A stretch of 55,367 nucleotides of DNA. Origin: Herbidospora cretacea (GTDB lineage: Bacteria; Actinomycetota; Actinomycetes; Streptosporangiales; Streptosporangiaceae). Both the position numbers and the translations under genes were made by a program. A model generated the notes under the pieces. The model did no database searches. It was not told the DNA's origin and was given only the letters and a program-made list of their open reading frames with translations. The stretch is taken from contig NZ_BBXG01000007.1 of assembly GCF_001570605.1 (NCBI RefSeq), forward strand, positions 1-55,367. Direction: 5' to 3'. This document shows positions 43,683 to 47,907 of the stretch, piece after piece. Position 1 is the stretch's first letter. Each line of letters starts with the position of its first letter.

Positions 43683-43724
43683 TGTTCGGCGCGAATTCGT
43701 GAGATATCTTCTTCCGGTCGAAGC

Positions 43725-43795
43725 TGCGGCCCGACGGGCTTCCCTCTGAGGACATGCCCCCATACCGCACGAAGTCCTTTCGTGCTGCCTGGGGG
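43725..43795 (+). ncRNA. Conserved structured leader of DUF2075 gene, copy 1
   Basis: The leader starts with TGCGGCCCGACGGGCTTCC, then a 12-base variable part, GCCCCCA, and a hairpin GCACGAA-GTCCT-TTCGTGC (43767-43785), ending in TGCCTGGGGG. CCCCCA (43757-43762) can pair with TGGGGG (43790-43795), enclosing the hairpin and hiding the G-run five bases before the GTG start. The same elements precede the second DUF2075 gene (47510-47578), though the proteins are much diverged. GCCC-GAC-GGGC in the first box is a small hairpin whose GGGC could pair with the GCCC that leads the P1 strand, suggesting a switch (inference). Confidence 0.7.
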
Positions 43796-43800
43796 AATCC

Positions 43801-45729
43801 GTGGCGAGCGTTCCGGCTCCCGCCGAGCGGTTGTCTGCCAAAAGTCTCTATGATTCGCTTCTTCAGCCGAAATCCATTGTGGAGCGAACCTTCATCGCGG
43901 CCCTCGCGGCCAAGGTCAAAGCCGTGACCGGCCGGACCCCGGGTGAATCCGAGAAGCGCGCCTGGATCAACAGCCTCTCCGACCTCTCCCGGACCCTGAT
44001 GGACGCCGAACGGGGAAGACTCGAAGTCTTCGTCGAATTCCCCATGCCGGGTAATAAACGCAGCTCGGCCGACGTCGTGCTGGCCGGATTCGATTCCAGG
44101 GGCAAGGTCTCCTACGTCGTCGTGGAACTCAAGCAATGGAGCGAGGCCGCGCTCTTCGAGGAGAACGACCGGCTGGTCGACGTGCCGGGGATGCGCCCGC
44201 ACCAGAGCCACCCCGCCGTCCAGGCAAGGGGATATCGCGACCAGCTCCGAGAGACGTGCTCCGCGCTCGACGGCCGCCCTGAGGCGGTGAGCGCCGTCGT
44301 CTACCTGCAGAACGCGCAGCACGAGGACATCCGCGACCTCTACCAGAAGTCGGTGACCGAGGAGGTGCCGCTGTTCTGCCGGAGCGAACGCGGCGCGTTC
44401 ATCACCTACCTCCGCAGCCGATTCTCCGACGAGCCCGGTCAGGTCGCCGGTGACATCCTGGCCCAGGGGGCGATGGTGCCGACCGGTGAGCTGCTCGACC
44501 GGGCCGCCGACGTGCTGCGGGGTCGCGACCAGTTCGTCCTGCTCGACGAACAGCAGGAGGCGCTCCAACTGATCCGCCACGACATCCGGGCGGCCTATGA
44601 GGCCAACACCAAGCGGGTCGTCATCATCACCGGAGGACCCGGCAGCGGAAAGACCGCGATCGCGCTGTCGCTGCTGCGCGAATACGCCGACGCCCGGGAT
44701 CGGGTGGCCTACGTGACCGGCTCCCGCACGCTCACCAAGACGTTCCGCCGGGTGATCGGCGGCCGGGACAAGGACATCGCCGGGCTTTTCCAGTACTACA
44801 ACGACTATGCCAACGCGCCCAAGAACAGACTCGACATGATCATCGTGGACGAGGCGCATCGAGTGCGGGCGAAGTCGCACGATCGCTACAACGCGGCCCG
44901 CCGCAGCGACCGCCCGCAGATCGAGAGCCTCATGGAGGCGGCTCGTGTTCCGGTCTTCCTCGTCGACGAACACCAGGTAGTCAAGCCTGGTGAGGTCGGG
45001 ACCGTAGCGGCTATCGAGGCGCAGGCCCAGATCTTGAACATCAAATATCACCGGGTCAGCCTCGACGGGCAGTGGCGCAGCGGTGGCAGCGCCGTCTACG
45101 ACGGATGGGTTCGCCGCCTGCTCAACCTCGGCGCCGCCGACGGTCAGTGGGACGGCGACCCGGGCGCGGAGCCGTGGCCGGGCGACGAGCATTTCGACGT
45201 GCGGTCAGCCGACTCACCCGCGCAGATGGAGGAGTTTCTCCGCGCCCGGATGGCCGAGGGTGGCTCCGCCCGGATCACCGCCGGATACTGCTGGCCGTGG
45301 AGCGACCCGCTCCCGGACAAGAGCCTGGTCGACGACGTGGTGATCGGCGACTGGGCCCGGCCGTGGAACGCCAACGGCGAGAGCGTCCGGGTGGGTAAGG
45401 CGCCCACCAGTCAGTTCTGGGCCACCCTGCCCGGCGGATTCGACCAGGTCGGCTGCATCTACACTGCTCAGGGCCTGGAGTTCGACTGGGCCGGTGTCAT
45501 CATCGGGCCCGATCTCATCGCCCGAGGCGACGGTCTGCGCACCGTCCGTGAGGCGAGTCGGGATAAGGACCTGGCAAAACGGACGGTCTCCGACGAGCAG
45601 TTCGACCGGCTGGTCCGCAATACGTACAAGGTTCTGCTGACACGGGGACTCAAGGGCGTCGTCATCTACGCCTGTGACGAGCAGACCCGGAAGCATCTCA
45701 GGGCATTAGTCCCTCCAGTAACTCCCTGA
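43801..45729 (+). CDS. DUF2075 nuclease-helicase (Schlafen-like AAA), copy 1
   Basis: 642 residues from GTG 43801. The N-terminal about 200 residues contain a PD-(D/E)xK-like core: DVVLAG (Asp91) and VVVELKQW (Glu109, Lys111). The SF1-type helicase follows: Walker A GGPGSGKTA (about 279-287), Walker B IIVDEAH (about 347-353), RVSLDGQWRSGG, then YTAQGLEFDWAGVIIGPD and NTYKVLLTRGLKGV near the C-terminus. This is the DUF2075/COG3410 arrangement. It ends 32 bases inside the convergent paralogue. Suggested role: DNA or RNA processing in defence or repair (inference). Confidence 0.88.
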   Translation: MASVPAPAERLSAKSLYDSLLQPKSIVERTFIAALAAKVKAVTGRTPGESEKRAWINSLSDLSRTLMDAERGRLEVFVEFPMPGNKRSSADVVLAGFDSRGKVSYVVVELKQWSEAALFEENDRLVDVPGMRPHQSHPAVQARGYRDQLRETCSALDGRPEAVSAVVYLQNAQHEDIRDLYQKSVTEEVPLFCRSERGAFITYLRSRFSDEPGQVAGDILAQGAMVPTGELLDRAADVLRGRDQFVLLDEQQEALQLIRHDIRAAYEANTKRVVIITGGPGSGKTAIALSLLREYADARDRVAYVTGSRTLTKTFRRVIGGRDKDIAGLFQYYNDYANAPKNRLDMIIVDEAHRVRAKSHDRYNAARRSDRPQIESLMEAARVPVFLVDEHQVVKPGEVGTVAAIEAQAQILNIKYHRVSLDGQWRSGGSAVYDGWVRRLLNLGAADGQWDGDPGAEPWPGDEHFDVRSADSPAQMEEFLRARMAEGGSARITAGYCWPWSDPLPDKSLVDDVVIGDWARPWNANGESVRVGKAPTSQFWATLPGGFDQVGCIYTAQGLEFDWAGVIIGPDLIARGDGLRTVREASRDKDLAKRTVSDEQFDRLVRNTYKVLLTRGLKGVVIYACDEQTRKHLRALVPPVTP

Positions 45730-47503
45730 CGGCCGGGTCGGTCGCGAAGATGACGGTGCCGCGCATGCCTCTGGTCAGCAGAACCTTGTAGACATTGCGA
45801 ACGAGCTGGTCGAACTCGGCGTCCGGGACGGTCTTGGTGCTCTTGAAGGCCGGGTCGCGGTTCGCGGCGCGTCTGGTGGTCAGGACGTCGTTCTCGACGG
45901 TCAGGTCGGGCCCGAGGATGACACCGGCCCAGTCGTACTCGAAGCCCTGGGCCGTGTAGACGCAGCCGACCTGGCCGAAGCCCGCGGGTTCGGTCGCCCA
46001 CAGCATGCTCGGCGGGGCGTCGCCGACCGCGCGGTCCTTCTTGACGTTCCACGGGCGGGCCCAGTCGCCGATCACCACGTCGTCGACCAGGGTCAGGTCG
46101 GCCCGGGGGTCGCTCCAGGGCCAGCAGTATCCGGCGGTCATCCGGGCCGTGCCCGGTTTGGCCTGGAGGATCGCTTCGAGCTCCTCCGGGCTGCCGGCGA
46201 GACGCACCTCGAAGTCGGGGTCGCCCGCCCACGGCGAGGGGCCGTCACCCGACAGACCCATGAGGTCGAGCACCCAGCGCTCGTAGTGTCTGCTGCCGCC
46301 GCAGCGGAACTGCTCGTCGAGGCTGACGTGGCTGACGGCGTACCCCTTGGACTTCGCGAAGGCCTCGATCGCCTGGACGGTGCCGAGCTCGCCCGGCCGC
46401 ACGACCTGATGTTCGTCAAGGAGGAACACCGGCACCCGTGCGGCGCTCAGCAGTTCGTCGAGTTGCGGGCGGCCGGTCCGTTTGGCGGCCGGGGTGAAGC
46501 GGTGGGACGAGGTCTCCCTGATGCGGTGAGCCTCGTCGCAGATCAGTACGTCGAGCGCGTCGGGCTTGGCGTCGGTGAGGCTGTTGAAGTAGACGAAGAG
46601 GTTCTTGATACGGCTGCTGCCCTTCGCGGGGTAGCGCCGCATGGTCTCAGTGAAGGACTGCGACCCGGTCGCGTGCAGGGTGGTGCGGCCCTGACGGAAC
46701 AGCTCGCCCAGCAGCGACAGGGCGATGACGCTCTTTCCGCTGCCGGGGCCGCCGGTGACGACGACGGCTCGCTTCTCGTCGGTGTCGACGGCCCGGACGA
46801 CCAGTTCGAAGGCGATCTGCTGTTCGTCGAGGAGGGTGAACTGCTCGCGCTCCCGGATCTCCTTGGCGGCGTGCGCCATGAGCTGGCGGCTCGGCGCGAC
46901 GTGACTGCCCAGCAGCCGATCGGCGGCGGTCTCGCCGGGCGCGGGAGCCAGTCTCGTGCGTAAGAATGCGCGGAACTCCTCGCGGCGGCTGCCGGTGAAG
47001 ACCTCACCGGCCAGGTCGGCGACGTCGAAGTCCATGGCGTTGTGCAGATAGGCGGCTGTGGCGACCGATTCAGGGGTGAGCACGTCGAGGAAGTCGACGA
47101 GGTATTCGCCGTAGCGACGGACCTGCTCGGCCGGGTGCAGGACCTCCCGGCCGCCGGTCAGCACCAGATGGTCGCCGAGTTCTGAGAGTTCGGCCTGGGT
47201 CCACTGCTTGAGTTCGACGACGACATAGGAGTCGGCGCCGGTCTCGGGATGCACCCCCGCAAGCACGACGTCGGCGCGGCGGCTGGTGAGCGGCAGCTTG
47301 TACTCGGCCAGCAGCGTGATCTCACCCAGCCCGGCCTCGGCGAGGTCGTGAGCGAGCACGGGGAGACTGTTGCGCCACGAACGCACTTCGGCGGGGGACG
47401 GTCCCTGACCGGTGGTGGCTCTCAGATGGTCGGCCAGCGCCTCGGTGAACGCCGTTTCGACGGGGGACAGCAGGTTCTCCACCGACAGCCGAATCGCCGA
47501 CAC
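45698..47503 (-). CDS. DUF2075 nuclease-helicase, copy 2 (convergent paralogue)
   Basis: 601 residues from GTG 47503. Same domain order as the convergent gene: nuclease core with ADVVLAG (Asp78) and VVVELKQW (Glu97, Lys99), Walker A GGPGSGKSV (about 253), Walker B LICDEAHRI, and the blocks YCWPWSDP, LVDDVVIGDWARPWN and YTAQGFEYDWAGVILGPD. The two share about half their residues by eye, so they are old duplicates, not a recent copy. It lies downstream of MazG and MSMEG_6728 genes on the same strand. The 3' ends overlap by 32 bases, so transcription of one gene can interfere with the other. Confidence 0.88.
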   Translation of the reverse strand: MSAIRLSVENLLSPVETAFTEALADHLRATTGQGPSPAEVRSWRNSLPVLAHDLAEAGLGEITLLAEYKLPLTSRRADVVLAGVHPETGADSYVVVELKQWTQAELSELGDHLVLTGGREVLHPAEQVRRYGEYLVDFLDVLTPESVATAAYLHNAMDFDVADLAGEVFTGSRREEFRAFLRTRLAPAPGETAADRLLGSHVAPSRQLMAHAAKEIREREQFTLLDEQQIAFELVVRAVDTDEKRAVVVTGGPGSGKSVIALSLLGELFRQGRTTLHATGSQSFTETMRRYPAKGSSRIKNLFVYFNSLTDAKPDALDVLICDEAHRIRETSSHRFTPAAKRTGRPQLDELLSAARVPVFLLDEHQVVRPGELGTVQAIEAFAKSKGYAVSHVSLDEQFRCGGSRHYERWVLDLMGLSGDGPSPWAGDPDFEVRLAGSPEELEAILQAKPGTARMTAGYCWPWSDPRADLTLVDDVVIGDWARPWNVKKDRAVGDAPPSMLWATEPAGFGQVGCVYTAQGFEYDWAGVILGPDLTVENDVLTTRRAANRDPAFKSTKTVPDAEFDQLVRNVYKVLLTRGMRGTVIFATDPAVRELLEGLMP

Positions 47504-47509
47504 AGACGT

Positions 47510-47578
47510 CCCCCAGGCAGCACGAAGTCACTCGTGCGGGTGGGGGCGTATCCGTCGCCGGAAGCCCGTCGGGCCGCA
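47510..47578 (-). ncRNA. Conserved structured leader of DUF2075 gene, copy 2
   Basis: Read on the minus strand: TGCGGCCCGACGGGCTTCC (identical to copy 1), a variable 12-base segment, GCCCCCA, hairpin GCACGA-GTGACT-TCGTGC and TGCCTGGGGG, ending six bases before the GTG at 47503. Stems are kept while the loop and spacer sequences differ from copy 1. The gap to the MazG stop (47590) is 11 bases. Confidence 0.7.
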
Positions 47579-47589
47579 TCACATGGTCA

Positions 47590-47907
47590 TTACGAGGTTA
47601 GCGGAGGGTAGCGTTTGTCGACCTCGTCGATCTTGGCGTGGATCGCCTCGATCAGGTCGACGCCCAGGACGTCGGCCAGCCGGATCAGATAGGTGGCCAC
47701 GTCGGACATCTCCGACCTCACCCTGGCCAGCGACTCCTCGTCCAGCGACGCCGCCTCCTCCGGGGTCAGCCACTGGAACTCGGCGAGGAGCTCGCCCGCC
47801 TCCCCGGCCAGCGCCATCGCGAGGTTCTTCGGCGTGTGGAAGACCTCCCAGTCGCGGGCGGCGGCGAAGGCCCGCAGCCGGGCGGCCACCTCTTCGATCT
47901 CGGTCAT
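47590..47907 (-). CDS. MazG-like nucleotide pyrophosphohydrolase
   Basis: 105 residues. All-alpha NTP-PPase fold of the RS21-C6/MazG type: FHTPKNLAMALAGEAGELLAEFQWL with the ExxE metal ligands, and EMSDVATYLIRLADVLGVD with the second ExxD pair. Such enzymes hydrolyse (d)NTPs and can clean the nucleotide pool or drain it. It follows the MSMEG_6728-like gene with 9 bases and precedes the leader of a DUF2075 gene, all on one strand. Confidence 0.9.
   Translation of the reverse strand: MTEIEEVAARLRAFAAARDWEVFHTPKNLAMALAGEAGELLAEFQWLTPEEAASLDEESLARVRSEMSDVATYLIRLADVLGVDLIEAIHAKIDEVDKRYPPLTS

Follow-up and report, generated by a model that had tools for sequence, protein, structure and literature searches.

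The window analysed here comprises 55,367 nucleotides (nt) of the Herbidospora cretacea genome (contig NZ_BBXG01000007.1, assembly GCF_001570605.1) and contains two convergent genes for nuclease-helicases of the DUF2075 type, each of which is preceded by a structured leader. Two such leaders on opposite strands, with a shared box, a GCCCCCA motif, a hairpin and a conserved 3′ part, had been described in a first-pass annotation made from the sequence alone, and all of these elements were verified at their places. The 19-base box TGCGGCCCGACGGGCTTCC is located at 43725-43743 (+) in leader A and at 47578-47560 (-) in leader B, and in both leaders it is followed by GCCCCCA, the GCACGA...TCGTGC hairpin and TGCCTGGGGG. 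Both downstream open reading frames (ORFs) belong to the SLFN-g3 helicases of PF09848 (282.1 and 281.1 bits, Pfam gathering threshold 24) and are 48% identical, so that the convergent DUF2075 nuclease-helicases of the first annotation were confirmed as well. The leader probably acts as a 5′-terminal cis-regulatory RNA with two states, which controls the translation of one actinobacterial SLFN-g3 clade, presumably in an autogenous manner.

Leader features and genes at the locus

Four helices are distinguished in the leader, P1 (GGCCC/GGGCU), P2 (UCC.../...GGA), P3 (CCCCCA/UGGGGG) and P4 (GCACGA/UCGUGC). A further pairing, termed the competing helix, joins GGGC of the box (positions 12-15) with GCCC at the start of GCCCCCA and extends P2 into a long hairpin; it is mutually exclusive with P1 and with the Shine-Dalgarno (SD) end of P3. 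The features of the locus are as follows.

43705..43710, + strand: -10-like promoter motif TATCTT of leader A (sequence; TANNNT survey)
43725..43743, + strand: 5′ box with hairpin P1 of leader A, P1 being formed by 43728-43732 with 43736-43740
43736-43739, + strand: strand common to P1 and the competing helix of leader A, within the box
43741..43752, + strand: P2 of leader A (UCC...GGA), very variable in length among relatives
43756..43762, + strand: GCCCCCA, anti-SD strand of P3 in leader A; 43756-43759 also partner of the box in the competing helix
43767..43785, + strand: P4 hairpin GCACGA...TCGTGC of leader A, stem sequence nearly invariant in 217 leaders
43790..43795, + strand: TGGGGG, 3′ strand of P3 and SD-like run of leader A (sequence, fold, alignment)
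43801..45729, + strand: SLFN-g3 nuclease-helicase A, 642 amino acids (aa), GTG start (PF09848, E 9.3e-84)
45698..47503, - strand: SLFN-g3 nuclease-helicase B, 601 aa, GTG start (PF09848, E 2e-83)
47510..47515, - strand: TGGGGG, 3′ strand of P3 and SD-like run of leader B (sequence, fold, alignment)
47520..47537, - strand: P4 hairpin of leader B (sequence, alignment)
47541..47547, - strand: GCCCCCA, anti-SD strand of P3 in leader B (sequence, alignment)
47551..47562, - strand: P2 of leader B (fold, alignment)
47560..47578, - strand: 5′ box with P1 of leader B, shared strand 47567-47564
47590..47907, - strand: MazG-like nucleotide pyrophosphohydrolase (PF12643, E 9.3e-9)
47595..47600, - strand: TAACCT, -10-like promoter motif of leader B, within the terminal part of the MazG-like gene

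When the window was scanned with up to three mismatches, the box was found at these two sites only (0.16 expected), and two or more matches occurred in one of 100 shuffled windows. In the whole genome, the next-best match has two mismatches. TGCCTGGGGG with one mismatch is not enriched on its own, with five sites found and eight expected. The end of the G-run lies 5 nt before the GTG at 43801 in leader A and 6 nt before the GTG at 47503 in leader B. Single-sequence folds (-32 to -44 kcal/mol) place the G-run inside P3 in both leaders; their folding z-scores lie between -0.96 and -1.98 and are thus modest, and the folding energy taken by itself would have been no evidence.

The 3′ ends of the two helicase genes overlap by 32 bases (45698-45729). 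The MazG-like gene is located directly upstream of helicase B on the same strand, and its stop codon ends 11 nt before the box.

Covariation of the helices and of the competing pairing

In total, 217 distinct leaders were compared. In a separate alignment fitted to the structure, 10 of 22 pairs show double changes, with 35 such cells against 8.0 in shuffles; the counts for P1 to P3 derive from alignments fitted to those helices and therefore lean towards them. In the 217 leaders, U-A cells were counted 13 times in P1 (shuffled mean 1.4, maximum 7 in 5000 shuffles) and 17 times in P3 (mean 2.0, maximum 8). On the protein tree, the register pairs of P3 changed together in 3.5, 4.0 and 2.5 of 7, 7 and 8 separate comparisons, and none changed oppositely. 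P3 retains an SD-like purine run by compensation, e.g., as CUCCC/GGGAG, CCUCC/GGAG or UCCCC/GGGGA. The SD region thus lies inside a helix supported by covariation, as is expected of a switch that sequesters the SD. Covariation had been named as a test by the first-pass annotation and was observed for P1, P2 and P3; the sequestering of the G-run at the ribosome site by CCCCCA/TGGGGG, which it had proposed, is supported by the covariation of P3.

The first five pairs of P4 are constant in 214, 215, 207, 216 and 215 of the 217 leaders, and this near-invariant sequence suggests recognition by some factor beyond the pairing itself. The length of P2 seems to be nearly free; in one relative (L135, 456-595), a short TGATC-rich unit repeated in tandem makes P2 longer.

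G-U cells are more frequent than A-C cells in P4 pairs 1-5 (15 to 2), P2 (16 to 1), P3 (18 to 8) and P1 (14 to 6), which speaks for an element acting as RNA of this strand. An element acting at the DNA level, i.e., an operator, the end of a mobile element or a recombination site, could draw on the fact that P4 with its flanks is palindromic enough to give weak matches on both strands. The strand-specific tolerance of G-U, the covariation and a promoter motif just upstream, by which the box would be transcribed, argue against it, and we regard it as very unlikely.

This promoter motif was surveyed in 163 non-redundant upstream regions, obtained from the 214 of 217 leaders with enough sequence. 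TANNNT starts 10-26 bases before the box in 155 of the 163, compared to 2-5 of 163 in five equally wide control windows. The motif thereby puts the box at or within about 10 bases of the mRNA 5′ end, and transcription would accordingly start within about 10 nt of the box. Leader B of the window also fits this placement, with the motif within the end of the MazG-like gene. A start codon was found for 201 of the 217 leaders (none for the other 16) and lies 69-135 nt from the box (median 87), and in 189 of these 201 it follows the end of the G-run by 5-9 nt. GTG was used 119 times, TTG 63 times and ATG 19 times. Directly before the start, three bases that are for the most part pyrimidines (TCC in 61 of 201) are complementary to the nearly invariant GGA of P2, so that a further competing pair is possible. 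A conserved leader peptide translated from the box was ruled out by eye, since the base before GCGG varies and the changes, together with a one-base loss, are not codon-like.

The first sign of the competing helix was a change of box position 12 from G to A together with a change of the third anti-SD base from C to U, though P1 is thereby broken. The search models did not contain the competing helix, so that the alignments are not biased towards it. A-U cells in this helix number 22 in the 217 leaders (shuffled mean 2.1, maximum 9 in 5000). They were 10 in the first 188 leaders (mean 0.79, maximum 5) and 12 in the 29 distinct leaders gathered after the helix had been proposed (mean 3.15, maximum 10), and in neither set did any of 20,000 shuffles reach the observed count. 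In one leader (L395), the changes preserve P1, P3 and the competing helix together.

For a tree-aware test, 198 of the 217 leaders with a protein of at least 200 aa were thinned to 121 and placed on a quick tree without mixture model and with midpoint root. The three pairs of the competing helix changed together in 4.9, 3.0 and 3.3 of 10, 7 and 6 comparisons (about 11.2 of 23) and never oppositely. Six off-register control pairs gave 2.0 joint and 3.8 opposite changes in all, and the register pairs of P1 and P3 resemble those of the competing helix. The strength of this evidence lies in the pooled counts. The guess of the first annotation that the box offers a competing pair is thus supported, as GGGC:GCCC covaries, though not strictly. 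We read the competing helix as a real but incomplete constraint, as it might be expected for a transient state. With it, a second, exclusive and conserved helix, as a switch requires, is present on comparative evidence, and a freed SD would be its consequence.

Two further pairings were considered. In forced alternative folds, the 5′ C's of P1 also paired with the G-run. Judged by counts of the facing bases, such an outer helix was rejected, because U at position 6 is opposite A in 5 of 18 cases and a change of the base opposite C8 is never accompanied by a change of C8. The box and the G-run also change together in part. A parallel triple helix was dismissed, since the register of the joint changes is antiparallel (box 12 with anti-SD position 3, box 14 with anti-SD position 1) and a Watson-Crick competing helix fits better.

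Folding along transcription was predicted for 201 leaders, 16 of the 217 having not been parsed. For transcripts ending behind CCCCCA, mean pair probabilities were predicted with a median of 0.48 for the competing helix (98 of 201 above 0.5) and of 0.17 for P1 (20 of 201 above 0.5). In the full leaders, the median of the competing helix is 0.00 versus 0.68 for P1, with P1 above 0.5 in 123 of 201, and the minimum-energy fold contains P3 in 181 of 201. For leaders A and B of the window, the values of competing helix and P1 are 0.70/0.26 and 0.59/0.40 in the nascent transcripts and about 0/0.95 and 0/0.98 in the full leaders. According to these predictions, the SD could be free at first and become hidden by refolding in the course of RNA synthesis.

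The position of the SD within a helix would also suit an RNA thermometer in which P3 melts with heat. However, the helices are very rich in G + C with predicted folds of -32 to -44 kcal/mol, and both the competing helix and the invariant P4 would be superfluous, so that this explanation has very little probability.

Distribution, encoded proteins and gene neighbourhood

Among 120 genomes of the family Streptosporangiaceae, 18 matched the hairpin pattern including the G-run, with 21 matches in all, whereas the reversed hairpin pattern gave none in the same 120 genomes. All 21 matches have a GTG 5-8 nt downstream, and the N-termini encoded there look homologous by eye. A first covariance model was built from these 21 matches and a second one from 108 sequences; the genome samples searched with them overlap. 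With the first model, 87 of 297 genomes of the order matched, all of them within the family of the window, and 40 of 394 genomes of the class sample, from 14 family codes. With the second model, 6 of 396 genomes of the phylum sample matched, all of the same class, the share of the 396 that lies outside this class not being stated. In the orders of four other genomes, 19 of 166, 2 of 5, 27 of 278 and 4 of 22 genomes matched. In the genome of the window itself, only the two sites described above were found by the model.

Two or more leader copies are present in 17 of the 87 matching genomes of the order and in 10 of the 40 of the class, often as tandem or convergent neighbours. Other genomes likewise contain close pairs of helicase paralogues in convergent or tandem arrangement, with a separate leader for each gene. 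In the genus of the window, the leaderless genomes G033, G109 and G165 have only PF09848 matches with E 4e-4 to 5e-4, one of which just reaches the cut-off.

A pattern without G-run or box, searched in GTDB genomes and IMG/VR, gave at least 163 matches in at least 133 stretches. Among the matches listed, an SLFN-g3 homologue follows in 87, of which 73 have the strict box and 14 lack it. The box without the gene was seen in 3, namely in two where the sequence ends after 64 and 40 nt and in L203 with a broken G-run; a further 73 have neither and are attributed to chance or to the other strand of the palindrome. L203 (6442-6523, -) carries box and P4 with no helicase downstream and is perhaps a leader that survived the loss of its gene. 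Leader and helicase were also found on a human-faeces contig named “bacteriophage” (L312, 4924-5005) and on an IMG/VR contig (L276, 2490-2583), which hints at mobility of the pair.

An SLFN-g3 gene is located downstream in 208 of 213 distinct leaders, these being the ones with more than 200 nt of downstream sequence; 3 of the 217 leaders come from loci gathered by protein search and are not independent for this link. The five leaders without the gene are L235 (301 nt of sequence), L221 (234 nt), L203, L118 (an ORF of 100 aa) and L104. The element thus precedes many DUF2075 genes, an occurrence that the first-pass annotation had asked for, and it stands before its own gene family, as it is known for autogenous leaders.

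For the protein tree, 164 of 171 proteins were kept and thinned to 101, leaving out fragments, two copies at a transposon-disrupted locus, one uncertain case and proteins of less than 480 aa. On inspection of the upstream sequence, the label was corrected to “leader” in two cases and to “remnant” in one. In this quick tree without mixture model and with midpoint root, 84 leader-bearing proteins, 4 leaderless ones and 1 with a remnant lie on one side of a branch with a support of 98 in the Shimodaira-Hasegawa-like approximate likelihood ratio test (SH-aLRT). The other side holds 12 proteins (SLFN-g3 helicases of Actinomycetota, Hymenobacter and Priestia), before which no leader was found by model search. 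As judged from these sequences, the leader is a mark of one clade of the mixed PF09848 family.

Several single loci were observed in this context. Two Streptomyces plasmid DUF2075 genes inside the leader clade (L306, L307) are leaderless and are preceded by a DUF3883 gene. Upstream of a second SLFN-g3 gene at L154 (- strand), only an apparent remnant of a leader is left, and at L293 and L259 a helicase copy is separated from its leader, apparently by an inserted transposase gene as seen by eye.

The proteins behind the same leader in other families of the class are 39-75% identical to helicase B of the window (36 relatives). Recent gene conversion or duplication without function could be thought of as the source of the likeness of the two window leaders, the helicase genes being adjacent paralogues; given that the same leader is kept before proteins this divergent, its probability is close to nil. 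Chance or local duplication is ruled out by the distribution across genomes.

A leader released from the mRNA, or acting in trans as a guide, decoy or cofactor of the nuclease-helicase, with SD occlusion being secondary, would account for the tight association with gene and clade and for the strong conservation of sequence and not of structure alone. The near-fixed distance to the start codon (5-9 nt in 189 of 201) and the compensated SD-like run would not be needed by a free RNA, and there are no separate copies, the model having found two places only in the genome of the window. This makes a partner RNA improbable.

In an alignment of 37 proteins, E67, D78, E97 and K99 as well as the helicase motif residues are invariant; we take the former to be a PD-(D/E)XK-like motif and the latter to be those of an SF1 helicase. 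We therefore read the protein as an intact PD-(D/E)XK-like nuclease joined to an SF1 helicase. The predicted protein model has a mean predicted local distance difference test (pLDDT) value of 89, and its helicase part matches UvrD, RecD2, SLFN11 and SLFN14. A sequence search against solved structures gave no significant match and NCBIfam no informative name. The PADLOC candidate PDC-S41 is matched in part by the window helicases (E 3.5e-19 and 1.5e-15, best stretch about 72 residues).

The MazG-like family is the most frequent partner and occurs in 19 of 41 loci, where its gene is either divergent or located upstream in the same orientation; for the 17 members measured, the median distance to the closest leader is 51 nt. 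On a Priestia plasmid (L314), a DUF2075 gene likewise has a nucleotide pyrophosphohydrolase gene in front of it. A wider conserved operon was rejected, as besides the helicases only the MazG-like family recurs often and two further clusters occur in 7 and 6 loci. PADLOC was applied to 146 of 207 neighbouring ORFs in 28 loci, with no baseline; strong matches include BrxHI, BrxD, JetA/JetB, MkoA and a type IV restriction enzyme among others, none of them in more than two members of the 25 families listed. Some loci thus lie near BREX, Wadjet, Mokosh or type IV restriction genes, and further neighbours are metabolic. The PADLOC neighbours fit defence islands in part of the loci; the defence or repair system suggested in the first-pass annotation is a putative one.

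Proposed regulation and comparison with known systems

In the mechanism that we propose, GGGC of the box, continuous with P2, would pair in the nascent RNA with GCCC of GCCCCCA and thereby occupy the anti-SD strand. Once P4 and the G-run have been made, the RNA would rearrange, with the box refolding as P1 and GCCCCCA pairing with TGGGGG in P3, so that the SD-like run is hidden and the default end state would be OFF. A factor that keeps the box from P1 or traps the competing helix would turn translation ON. The conserved P3/P4 core would be the likely recognition site, as the sequence of the stem is kept and not its pairing alone, and the cell may benefit from keeping a possibly toxic or defensive nuclease-helicase under tight control. 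As far as sequence comparison carries, the structure is strongly supported; the direction of the switch, its trigger and its benefit are inferred.

Besides the leaning of the P1 to P3 counts mentioned above, several findings speak against the two-state reading. All three pairs are kept in 39 of 50 variant leaders for P3, compared to 26 of 50 for the competing helix and 13 of 50 for P1. Of 43 box A's in the three positions, 22 face U and 21 face C, and A-C cells of the competing helix (21) exceed G-U cells (8). Taken one by one, the sign tests on the tree have little power to convince (median p 0.06 and 0.25 for two register pairs). In the folding predictions, P1 dominates in just 123 of 201 full leaders and the competing helix in just 98 of 201 nascent ones (probability above 0.5); a full leader that is forced into the competing helix loses a median of 7.3 kcal/mol, and among the forced folds listed, the G's thus released often pair with 5′ C's. 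Furthermore, GGGGG is a weak SD, a few genes of the clade have no leader (L306, L307 and L296; L298 has only a match of 20.5 bits, E 0.055), and the tie between leader and encoded protein is an association only.

Given a switch, a protein is our tentative choice as its trigger, since the element is tied to one gene family and one protein clade, which makes the encoded protein the most likely factor, i.e., autogenous control. A small molecule or nucleotide is a rather doubtful trigger and another RNA or protein an unlikely one, the remainder being unassigned.

As a complete explanation, a ligand-binding riboswitch, in which a small molecule or nucleotide signalling infection or damage is recognised by the P3/P4 core and its conserved internal loop and the SD switch is set in this way, is improbable, if deserving of attention. 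It would make sense of the near-invariant P4 stem, the two exclusive folds with the SD in the platform and the MazG-like nucleotide pyrophosphohydrolase, which leads the neighbour families with 19 of 41 loci. A metabolite riboswitch usually has several related genes under its control, whereas one gene family only stands behind this element (208 of 213), and the candidate has no known ligand.

Somewhat speculatively, the leader may represent a new class of RNA switch at the very 5′ end of defence-gene mRNAs, in which the first few dozen bases mimic the SD region as a decoy for the anti-SD strand, with translation being licensed only when infection is sensed. Sensing could then occur by depletion of the nuclease-helicase onto foreign nucleic acid, or by a nucleotide signal linked to the MazG partner.

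An RNA family in several actinobacterial orders appears to gate the translation of a putative defence nuclease-helicase. Its two-state fold can be tested base by base and would offer a handle on how possibly toxic proteins stay off. To our knowledge, most descriptions of how defence genes are controlled concern transcription factors. The leader would also serve as a marker that singles out one clade from the mixed DUF2075/PF09848 annotation. Compared with the SLFN-g3/DUF2075 helicases at large, the window proteins are members of PF09848, whereas the 12 outgroup members of the tree have no leader. The vertebrate Schlafens SLFN11 and SLFN14 (PDB 7zel, 9uie) differ in the N-terminal part, which here is presumably PD-(D/E)XK-like and is barely covered by the fold search.

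Switching by exclusive pairing is the general scheme of riboswitches. In autogenous leaders of the ribosomal-protein type, a structured leader serves a single gene family and stays with its gene. The present element has in common with them one structured leader with one gene family; here a nuclease-helicase is encoded and its binding is putative.

In Rfam 15, only unrelated matches below the curated threshold were found, so that none of its families accounts for the leader, as the first-pass annotation had suspected. In the literature search, DUF2075 was not found together with “RNA motif” and mentions of DUF2075 were sparse, the survey of 224 RNAs of 2017 being outside this comparison; the portions available of PMC12839542, PMC11109978, PMC8632094, PMC2864571 and PMC6429828 do not describe the motif. 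The RNA element is thus apparently undescribed as far as Rfam and this search reach.

In the available part of its description, the Streptomyces dauA motif is a candidate for an SD-sequestering riboswitch (PMC11109978). Such riboswitches and the present leader share, as far as that part goes, a structured 5′ untranslated region, an SD within the structure and a start codon just downstream. The leader differs from the dauA type in sequence and gene, has no Rfam match and is found with one gene family only. On the sequences compared here, its probable mode of action fits best that of an SD-sequestering riboswitch or an autogenous leader.

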